Assembly: GCA_944387575.1 (NCBI GenBank)
Contig: CALXFK010000066.1
Span: 1-41,618, forward strand
DNA from: an uncultured Clostridia bacterium
Lineage (GTDB): Bacteria > Bacillota > Clostridia > Oscillospirales > JAAYOS01
DNA length: 41,618 nt
Direction of reading: 5' to 3'
Below the pieces are notes generated by a model, which did not search any database, was not told the DNA's origin, and was given only the letters and a program-made list of their open reading frames with translations. A program made the translations under genes and the position numbers. This document shows, piece by piece, positions 9,554-13,198 of this stretch (position 1 is its first letter; each line of letters begins with the position of its first letter).

Positions 9554-9736
9554 ATGGAAAACAAGCATGACACCATCCTCGGCGTAAAGTGCGAGGTAAC
9601 CGACTGCGTATACCACTGCTGCGACAACGCCTGCGCAGCGCCCTCTATCAAGGTCGGCTGCGGAAGCGGCTGCTCTGCACACGACAAGAGCGACACCGTC
9701 TGCAACACCTTCCGTTGCAACAGTGCAAGCATGTAA
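9554..9736 (+). CDS. DUF1540 small cysteine-rich protein
   Basis: A 60-residue protein with nine cysteines in a spaced pattern (VKCEVTDCVYHCCDNACAAPSIKVGCGSGC...CNTFRC), matching one DUF1540 unit, a Firmicutes family presumed to bind metal through its cysteines. Many family members carry two units; this has one. No function is known. A weak GGAG-type ribosome binding site precedes the ATG, and a strong hairpin terminator follows within about 30 bases, so it is probably a monocistronic gene between two leftward genes. Confidence 0.85.
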   Translation: MENKHDTILGVKCEVTDCVYHCCDNACAAPSIKVGCGSGCSAHDKSDTVCNTFRCNSASM

Positions 9737-9831: not shown

Positions 9832-11313
9832 CTATTTTTTCGCCGCGAATTCGAGCACCTCATCTGCCATCTTCTCGGCTCCGATCACATCGGTGAATCG
9901 CTCCTTTGCATCCCTCAAACGCACAAGCGGCAGCGGCGCAGGTACACCAGTGACCTCTTCGAGTCGCGCTATCAGGTCATCCGACTCGCTGTACCCAACG
10001 CCAAGCGCCTCAAGTACCGACCCGCAGAATTTGTAAGGGCTCGCAGTAGACACCACGACCGCCGGGGTCCTGTCCCCGGTCAACGTAAAGTATTTCTGCA
10101 TTACATTCTCAGCCACCGCAGTGTGCGGATCTATCAAATAGCCGTGTTCATTATAACACTGTGCGATCGTCTTTAGCGTCTCCTCATCGCTGCACCAGTC
10201 CGCCCAGAACAATTCGTCGAAGTATTTTTTCACGTCATCACCGACAGTGTATTCGCCTTTACTCTTCAACTCGTTCATCAAGGTTTTGACCTTTATATCA
10301 CTGCCCGCAAAAACCCGCAGCAACCGCTCCAGGTTGGAGGATATGAGTATATCCATCGACGGCGAAGAGGTGGTAAAGAACTCTCGACGACGGTCATATA
10401 CTCCGGTGCGAATGAAGTCGGTTAGCACGTTATTTGAATTCGACGCGCATATTAGTTTGCGTATCGGCACACCCATCTCACGCGCATACCACGCAGCCAG
10501 AATATTTCCGAAATTGCCGGTTGGCACACAGAAGTTTACAGCGCCATCCGCTCCGGTCTTACCCTCACGTGCAAGGTCACACCACGCAGAGACATAGTAT
10601 GCGATCTGCGGGAGAAGCCTGCCCCAGTTTATAGAGTTTGCCGACGAGAACCTGCATCCCCGCACAGCAACCTCGCGCTGCATATTTTCGTCCGAGAAAA
10701 TATTTTTTACGCCTGTCTGCGTATCGTCAAAATTTCCGCACACAGCCTTTACACAGACATTCTGCCCGGTCTGTGTGGTCATTTGGAGCTGCTGTATGCG
10801 ACTTACTCCCTCCGCAGGGTAGAACACCATTATCTTTGTTCCGGGAACATCCGCAAAACCTTCGAGCGCAGCCTTCCCGGTATCCCCCGAAGTTGCAGTG
10901 AGTATGAGGGCGGTTTCACTCTGTCCAGTCTTGCGTAGCGACGCACCTAACAGGCGCGGAAGCATCTGAAGCGCCATATCCTTGAACGCACAAGTCGGAC
11001 CGTGCCACAATTCGAGCATCCAGTGCTCTCCCACCGCGTGAAGCGGTGCAGGGCCACCCGGGAAACGGTCTTCACTGTACGTCTCCCTTGCAAACCGATC
11101 AAGCTCCTCAGCAGTGAACTCGTCGAGGTACATTCCCATAATGTATGCCGCCCGTTCCGGGTAACTCATTTTCATGAGCCGGTCAAGCGCACCGGCATCC
11201 AGTTTCGGTATTTCGACCGGCAAAAACAGTCCACCATCCGGAGCGAGACCTGCCGCGATCGCCTCCGATGCGGAGACCGACACCAAATCATTTCTCGTAC
11301 TTGTATATCTCAT
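9832..11313 (-). CDS. thrC: Threonine synthase
   Basis: A 493-residue PLP enzyme converting O-phosphohomoserine to threonine. The N-terminal YTSTRNDLVSVSASEAIAAGLAPDGGLFLP is characteristic of the longer, yeast/E. coli-like class. The PLP lysine is Lys111 in ELWHGPTCAFKDMALQ, and the phosphate-binding loop ATSGDTGKAALEGF follows. The length is normal. GGAGG is just ahead of the ATG. It lies 24 bases downstream of the rnhB-yraN fusion, so it appears to be the last gene of the lepB-rbgA-rnhB cluster, an amino-acid gene behind housekeeping genes; no threonine leader or riboswitch is seen. Confidence 0.96.
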   Translation of the reverse strand: MRYTSTRNDLVSVSASEAIAAGLAPDGGLFLPVEIPKLDAGALDRLMKMSYPERAAYIMGMYLDEFTAEELDRFARETYSEDRFPGGPAPLHAVGEHWMLELWHGPTCAFKDMALQMLPRLLGASLRKTGQSETALILTATSGDTGKAALEGFADVPGTKIMVFYPAEGVSRIQQLQMTTQTGQNVCVKAVCGNFDDTQTGVKNIFSDENMQREVAVRGCRFSSANSINWGRLLPQIAYYVSAWCDLAREGKTGADGAVNFCVPTGNFGNILAAWYAREMGVPIRKLICASNSNNVLTDFIRTGVYDRRREFFTTSSPSMDILISSNLERLLRVFAGSDIKVKTLMNELKSKGEYTVGDDVKKYFDELFWADWCSDEETLKTIAQCYNEHGYLIDPHTAVAENVMQKYFTLTGDRTPAVVVSTASPYKFCGSVLEALGVGYSESDDLIARLEEVTGVPAPLPLVRLRDAKERFTDVIGAEKMADEVLEFAAKK

Positions 11314-11337: not shown

Positions 11338-12306
11338 CTAAAATGCGTTCTCAATCAGTTCGATTTTGGGATTGTCCTTATCCTCATCCACAATTCCGAT
11401 GACGTCGAACCTCGGCTGTAAATTGCACGGATTTCGCTGAAGCCACTCCTGTGCAGCCATGCGTATTCTCCGCTGCTTATGTATGTCAACAAACTCCACT
11501 GGCTGGGCGAAATCAACACTTCCGCGCAGCTTAACTTCGCAGAAAACAATATACTTATTATTTGCAACGATGAGGTCTATCTCACCGCGGCGTGTACGGA
11601 AGTTCCGTTCCTTGAGCACATACCGTCTCTTCGTATACTCTTTCAGTGCGATCTGCTCGCCCAGCATTCCGCGGCGTTTTGCTTCCATTCTATCCCTTCT
11701 ATAATAGTACTTACGCAGGAACCTGGTGCGGTGCTCAACACTCGGACCAAACCTGTTCAGCCCCTCGTAGTGCTCTTTTGTACCGTAGCCCTTATTCTTT
11801 GCAAATCCGTACCCCGGGAAAAATTCGTCCATATCGGTGAGCACCCGGTCTCGAACCACCTTTGCAACGATCGATGCCGCCGCGACCGACGCACACTTCT
11901 CGTCTCCTCCAACAACGCTCACTACCGGCAGTGTAAACTCTCGAGCTACGTTTCCGTCTACGATAACACCGTCGATAGGCACGAGCGACGCCACATCGTC
12001 AACCGCATCCCGCATCGCCTTCTGTGACGCGGACAGGATATCGGTGCGGTTTATTTCACGCACCGTCACAAAGCGCACCGACCACACAGTTTTCGCGCAG
12101 ATCTCATCAAATAACTCCCTGCGTCGCCGAGCGGTGAGCTTTTTTGAATCGTCCAACCCCTCTATGTGTGCGTCGCCAAGATAAACCGCCGCCGCATACA
12201 CCGGTCCTGCAAGCGAGCCGCGACCTACTTCGTCGGTTCCGCACCAGCAGGAAAACCCATTTGCCTGAGCTATTGTACGTTCAAATGCAACCTTGTCTGT
12301 TTCCAT
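11338..12306 (-). CDS. rnhB: Ribonuclease HII fused to a YraN (UPF0102) nuclease-like domain
   Basis: One uninterrupted 322-codon frame encodes two domains. Residues 1-200 are RNase HII, which removes ribonucleotides from DNA: Asp25-Glu26 in GTDEVGRGSLAGP, Asp117 in VDGN and Asp135 in GGDEKCASVAAASIVAKVVRD form the expected acidic site. Residues 213-322 are YraN/UPF0102, a restriction-endonuclease-like fold, with RRGMLGEQIALKEY, Asp243 in RRGEIDLI and Glu257/Lys259 in FCEVKLR. The linker is about 12 basic residues (YYRRDRMEAKRR). In most Firmicutes rnhB and yraN are adjacent separate genes. GGAGAG precedes the ATG, which overlaps the end of rbgA by 26 bases. Confidence 0.93.
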   Translation of the reverse strand: METDKVAFERTIAQANGFSCWCGTDEVGRGSLAGPVYAAAVYLGDAHIEGLDDSKKLTARRRRELFDEICAKTVWSVRFVTVREINRTDILSASQKAMRDAVDDVASLVPIDGVIVDGNVAREFTLPVVSVVGGDEKCASVAAASIVAKVVRDRVLTDMDEFFPGYGFAKNKGYGTKEHYEGLNRFGPSVEHRTRFLRKYYYRRDRMEAKRRGMLGEQIALKEYTKRRYVLKERNFRTRRGEIDLIVANNKYIVFCEVKLRGSVDFAQPVEFVDIHKQRRIRMAAQEWLQRNPCNLQPRFDVIGIVDEDKDNPKIELIENAF

Positions 12307-13198
12307 CGTATCTCTCCAGCGTTATACAGCCGATCTTGCCCGCTCTGTACTCGTCAAGCAGCATCGTTGCCGCCCGCCTCAGATCCACCTCGCCGCCTCG
12401 CTCAATACATCCACGTCTGCGACCTATCGCGCTCAGAAGCTCCACACCAAACGTGCTCACCAGTGGCTCACCTGGCATCCCCGGCAGCTCATATGACTCC
12501 GCACGCGCCGCCTCAATATCTATTCCGTATCTTCCTGCGAGCTTATCCGGAGCTATCTCACCTAGTAACGACGCGAGCCTGCAGGCGAGCTCCTCCACAT
12601 CGAGCACCTCGTCCCTTACTGCGCCGGTAAACGCTAGATGCAGACCGGTATTTGGGTTTTCAAACTTAGGCCACAGCATTCCGGGCGTGTCGAGCAGCTC
12701 AAGCCCGTCCCCGAGGTAGAACCATTGCCGCTTTCGCGTTACCCCCGGTCGGTCCTCTGCCTTCGCCTTCCTACCGCCTGCTATCCTGTTTATAAGTGAG
12801 GACTTGCCGACATTCGGCACCCCAACTATCATCACTCTTATCGTCGCCTTGCGCCCCTGAGCAGCCCGCCGCTCTATTAGTTCCTGCGCCGCACGACGAA
12901 CCGCCTGAGTGAACTTGTCCACTCCGCGACCGCTCTTCGCATCGGTCTCCACTGTTATATAACCGTTATTGCGAAAACCTTCCGCCCACCGTGCCGTCTC
13001 CTCCGGCTCTGCCTGATCCACGCGGTTTATTATTATAACGCGAGGTTTGCCCTGGGTCAAATCGGCTATATCGGGGTTACGGCTCGATGCAATTATCCGT
13101 GCATCCACAAGCTCGCAGACCACGTCCACATCCCTTAGCGACTCGCTGAGAAGCCGCTTTGTTTTCGCCATATGTCCGGGATACCACTGTATATCCAT
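12281..13198 (-). CDS. rbgA: Ribosome biogenesis GTPase RbgA/YlqF
   Basis: A 305-residue circularly permuted GTPase needed for late 50S subunit assembly. The N-terminus MDIQWYPGHMAKTKR is characteristic. The motif order is permuted: G4 (IINRVDQ, with NRVD for the usual NKxD) comes before G1 (VGVPNVGKSSLIN), then G2 (GVTRKRQW) and G3 (DTPGMLWP). The C-terminal region forms the RNA-binding domain. It lies between lepB and rnhB-yraN in the usual Firmicutes order, with 29 bases to lepB and an overlap of 26 bases with rnhB-yraN. Confidence 0.96.
   Translation of the reverse strand: MDIQWYPGHMAKTKRLLSESLRDVDVVCELVDARIIASSRNPDIADLTQGKPRVIIINRVDQAEPEETARWAEGFRNNGYITVETDAKSGRGVDKFTQAVRRAAQELIERRAAQGRKATIRVMIVGVPNVGKSSLINRIAGGRKAKAEDRPGVTRKRQWFYLGDGLELLDTPGMLWPKFENPNTGLHLAFTGAVRDEVLDVEELACRLASLLGEIAPDKLAGRYGIDIEAARAESYELPGMPGEPLVSTFGVELLSAIGRRRGCIERGGEVDLRRAATMLLDEYRAGKIGCITLERYDGNRQGCI

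Follow-up and report, generated by a model that had tools for sequence, protein, structure and literature searches.

RNase HII (RnhB) is known from solved structures such as those of T. maritima (3o3f) and E. coli (7uwe). YraN, the UPF0102 family, was earlier predicted to be a PD-(D/E)XK nuclease (PMC1189080), and in one case the activity of a recombinant UPF0102 protein was not detected (PMC10140301). As cited in PMC12455585, a preprint (Hardy et al., 2024; 10.1101/2024.02.06.579203) has since described YraN as a nuclease working in partnership with the helicase ComM. ComM itself has been termed "notably absent" in Firmicutes (PMC11612176).

We analyzed a 41,618-nt contig of an uncultured Clostridia bacterium (CALXFK010000066.1, here called the window), in which rnhB and yraN form one gene. 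Its product shares with T. maritima and E. coli RNase HII the common fold, the catalytic residues, the GRG motif and the full domain. Unlike these two enzymes, it bears a second nuclease domain at the C-terminus. That second domain has the fold and the ID...EVK-type nuclease motif (PMC1189080) of YraN/UPF0102 (3fov). Here, however, YraN is tethered to RNase HII and is not a free protein.

The fused gene and its two domains

The features of the locus that are discussed below are as follows.

11338-12306, minus strand: rnhB-yraN fused coding sequence, 322 aa (open reading frame and Pfam)
11719-12243, minus strand: RNase HII domain, residues 22-196, with D25, E26, GRG 28-30, D117 and D135 (Pfam and alignment)
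11662-11718, minus strand: basic join, residues 197-215, within a predicted helix of residues 194-226 (11629-11727) that is absent in relative L080
11392-11661, minus strand: YraN/UPF0102 PD-(D/E)XK domain, residues 216-305, with E242, D244, E257 and K259 (Pfam, Foldseek and alignment)
12281-13198, minus strand: YlqF (RbgA), ribosome biogenesis GTPase, upstream neighbor, overlapping the fused gene by 26 nt
9832-11313, minus strand: threonine synthase (thrC), downstream neighbor, 24 nt past the fused gene

The 322-aa frame called at 11338-12306 starts with ATG and has no internal stops. Pfam RNase_HII (PF01351) scored 129.4 bits against a cut-off of 25.8 and covered profile positions 1-196 of 199 (residues 22-196), and UPF0102 (PF02021) scored 83.4 bits against a cut-off of 23.6 over the whole profile (1-80 of 80, residues 216-305). 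NCBIfam models agreed with Pfam on both domains. The initial annotation of RNase HII and YraN in a single reading frame is thus borne out by one stop-free frame holding two near full-length domains. The host genome (1.85 Mb in 109 contigs, 88% complete) has a single rnhB match and a single yraN match in a profile search of its contigs, and both lie inside the fused frame. The ylqF (rbgA) gene adjoins the fused gene in 24 of 24 cases, and thrC is close to most of them. A small cysteine-rich ORF of 60 aa is present on the strand opposite to the neighboring genes (window 9554-9736, plus strand).

An alignment of 24 fused proteins indicated that D25, E26, D117 and D135 are invariant, together with G28-R29-G30, in agreement with the four catalytic residues first read by eye. 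E242, D244, E257, K259 and D301 of YraN are also invariant and the PD-(D/E)XK motif is present, so that the YraN active site appears as intact as was claimed. Of the three YraN residues named initially, Glu257 and Lys259 stand; the assignment of Asp243 was off by one, as residue 243 is Ile and the Asp is D244. In Foldseek searches, the N-terminal domain matched the solved RNase HII structures 3o3f and 7uwe, and the YraN domain matched the UPF0102 structure 3fov (E = 7.7e-7, TM 0.80 by target length). Judged by family and intact residues, the N-terminal domain probably has RNase HII activity at ribonucleotides in DNA.

The join had been described as basic, and we counted 8 K/R within residues 196-216. 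The AlphaFold2 model of the fused protein has a mean pLDDT of 96.9 for both domains and a pTM of 0.84; in it, a continuous predicted helix (residues 194-226) spans the join. Such a helix could fix a domain geometry in the window's protein. A second model, that of relative L080, has the helix broken between the domains and does not support a conserved helical join. The join is 12-20 residues long in most fused proteins and about 35 in L081, and many joins contain prolines. Because the interdomain helix is broken in the L080 model and join length and helicity vary, there is no rigid arrangement shared by the fused proteins.

Distribution and origin of the fusion

A search of related Clostridia, as proposed in the initial annotation, found the same RnhB-YraN architecture in the window's family and in other families. 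Eight of 10 sampled genomes of the window's GTDB family, in five genera, carry the fusion as one open frame. The two remaining genomes are G002, where a contig end truncates the locus, and G008, which has no RnhB match and a sub-threshold YraN match. G008 (genus g4, 94% complete) also has no real ComM match, and it seems to lack the three genes jointly; its genus-mate G007 carries both the fusion and ComM. Outside the family, open reading frames confirmed fusions in eight further family-level groups (f2, f5, f15, f17, f24, f26, f86, and f94), as well as in L002 and L003, both metagenome-assembled genomes of Oscillospiraceae. The Desulfovibrio locus L066 was fusion-like by match length and proved to be two overlapping frames. 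Genomes G214, G243, G186, G034, and G146 have long open frames, and the genes are separate. Our literature search found no paper naming both RNase HII and YraN/UPF0102. The RNase HII-YraN architecture is presumably listed already in public protein databases.

It had been feared that the fusion might be missing from close relatives and hence be an artifact. The window does come from a fragmented genome, as would suit a sequencing or assembly error that merged two genes. However, the same fusion is present in separately assembled genomes from other families and from four further genera of the window's own. Since relatives keep it, the fusion is not an assembly artifact, and we regard the chance of such an error as negligible.

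The gene arrangement in relatives was examined in 30 loci of the order, picked by YraN score irrespective of fusion. By stop-to-stop open-frame extents (coding overlaps may differ), the rnhB and yraN frames overlap in 26 loci, are adjacent in one, are separated by a single in-frame stop in one and are fused in one; one locus has no nearby rnhB. Five further loci fetched by coordinates (L182, L183, L187, L195, and L201) also have one in-frame stop between the two genes. In a class sample of 28 loci, rnhB and yraN are adjacent in about half. The statement that rnhB and yraN are usually adjacent separate genes therefore holds for the order, with 28 of 30 loci touching or overlapping, and for about half of the class loci. 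Because the unfused frames overlap or adjoin by one stop, a fusion takes just a stop loss or a small indel.

In a tree built from concatenated RnhB and YraN sequences, the fusions of the window's family form one clade (SH-aLRT 89). By parsimony the fused/unfused state changes at least eight times on this tree, which does not give the direction of change. An AU test on a 60-row subset rejected all fused rows as one clade (p-AU 0.005), and with it a single ancestral fusion for all fused genes. The fusion arose several times independently, among related gut bacteria. The exact count is uncertain because the starred branches alone force only two to three changes.

Both domains of the fused gene are under constraint. 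Pairwise dN/dS between closely related fused genes was ≤0.15 in both domains, and therefore both halves are maintained by purifying selection. For the join, the pairs with a computable value (f1, f24 and Oscillospiraceae) gave a dN/dS of approximately 0.5-0.7, and the f26 pair had no amino-acid change in the join.

We also looked for a start codon from which YraN could be made separately. One candidate was found within the join.

11686-11698, minus strand: candidate internal start, ATG of Met207 (11686-11688) with AAGG (11695-11698) 6 nt upstream (sequence)

A comparable start was not conserved across the other fused frames examined, and several of them have zero start codons in the join. No conserved internal start yielding free YraN was thus found among the fused frames. 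Most organisms with the fused gene must therefore make YraN within the fusion, barring cleavage of the protein.

YraN and ComM

An intact YifB/ComM-type frame is present in the window's genome, on another contig (C35). Its product scored 560 bits with TIGR00368 (cut-off 362) and fell below the cut-off of the narrower model NF007365 (406 vs. 530). As in the YraN-ComM pair of the Hardy et al. preprint (cited in PMC12455585), a YraN domain and a ComM-type helicase occur together in this genome and are co-lost across the class. ComM here sits on a different contig from the YraN domain, and in this lineage a physical interaction of the two and a role in transformation are putative.

Co-occurrence was examined in 245 genomes of the class, with ComM called absent at E > 1e-20. 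YraN was lacking in 26 genomes, a real ComM match in 21, and both in 18. In a quality subset of 196 class genomes (≥90% complete, ≤5% contaminated), all 10 YraN-less genomes also lacked ComM, and YraN without ComM was found in one of 186 genomes (G345). Fisher's test gave p = 6e-16 for the 196 genomes, a value that ignores kinship, with the losses falling in about five families. RNase HII was kept in eight of nine tested among the ten YraN-less class genomes. Within family f80, G360 lacks both YraN and ComM, and G383, G405, G425, and G445 have both. By listed coordinates, at least 29 class genomes have yraN no more than 3 kb from comM, and in many class genomes yraN is located away from rnhB. 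YraN presence thus tracks ComM, not RNase HII.

Within the order the YraN/ComM contrast is uninformative, as ComM is near-universal there. Ten of the 14 YraN-less order genomes also lack RnhB, which indicates a missing contig. ComM is present in most genomes with the fusion; G140 (fused, 88% complete) has no real match. TIGR00368 (YifB/ComM-type) scored above cut-off in 211 of the 245 class genomes, against the absence statement of PMC11612176, which may apply to Bacilli rather than to this class. Three phylum-level genomes without YraN (G617, G646, and G515) gave two PF01351 matches each. These pairs are probably RNase HII and RNase HIII.

Discussion

We consider it probable, at roughly 0.7, that the gene is a genuine two-domain fusion of a co-translated pair, in which RNase HII serves ribonucleotide excision and YraN acts with ComM, on substrates that need not be shared. 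A touching or overlapping, co-translated rnhB-yraN pair would have fused into one two-domain protein. The N-terminal domain would incise at ribonucleotides in DNA, and the C-terminal PD-(D/E)XK nuclease would work with a ComM-type (YifB) branch-migration helicase whose gene is located elsewhere in the genome. The fusion would lock 1:1 co-expression of two mostly independent activities, with a shared substrate unnecessary. The co-loss across the class, together with the preprint cited in PMC12455585, points to a YraN-ComM partnership in the window's organism as well. The initial suggestion that the fusion implies a common substrate is not supported, as YraN tracks ComM, the partner proposed in that preprint, and not RNase HII; the two domains probably do not share one.

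The recurrence of the fusion and the purifying selection acting on each half could nevertheless mean real cooperation between the domains, and direct cooperation is possible. The two domains might act in sequence: YraN would trim or cut the branched or nicked intermediate left once RNase HII had nicked a ribonucleotide or RNA-DNA junction. Several independent fusions within the order, the adjacency of rnhB and yraN in nearly all unfused order relatives, conserved active sites in both domains and a short join, modeled as one helix in the window's protein, are consistent with such a relay. However, YraN is lost along with ComM while RNase HII stays, and yraN is far from rnhB in many class genomes. 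The variable length and helicity of the join, with the broken helix of L080, also argue against a conserved fixed geometry, and we think sequential action on one substrate rather unlikely. More doubtful still is a scheme, selected several times independently, in which YraN is recruited by ComM and carries RNase HII along in cis, so that ribonucleotides or RNA would be removed from recombining strands. Recurrent fusion of an overlapping gene pair can also stem from proximity alone, and the fusion might be a functionless accident, with YraN perhaps also made alone from Met207 in the window's organism. The ATG with its upstream AAGG and the ease of fusion by stop loss or small indel would fit that explanation. 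A lack of conservation of this start, joins in several other fused frames that hold no start codon and retention of the fused state across five genera speak against it, and we judge a functionless accident to be the least probable of these three alternatives.

If ComM did bring RNase HII to recombining strands through YraN, ribonucleotide excision would be coupled to ComM-driven branch migration. The comparison across the class, whose members commonly have the ComM-type helicase, adds genome-scale support for the dependence of YraN on ComM. The RNase HII-YraN protein is stable in evolution and has evolved repeatedly, and it could be purified as one molecule for assaying YraN. The function of YraN thereby becomes a directly testable question on branched and RNA-containing DNA.
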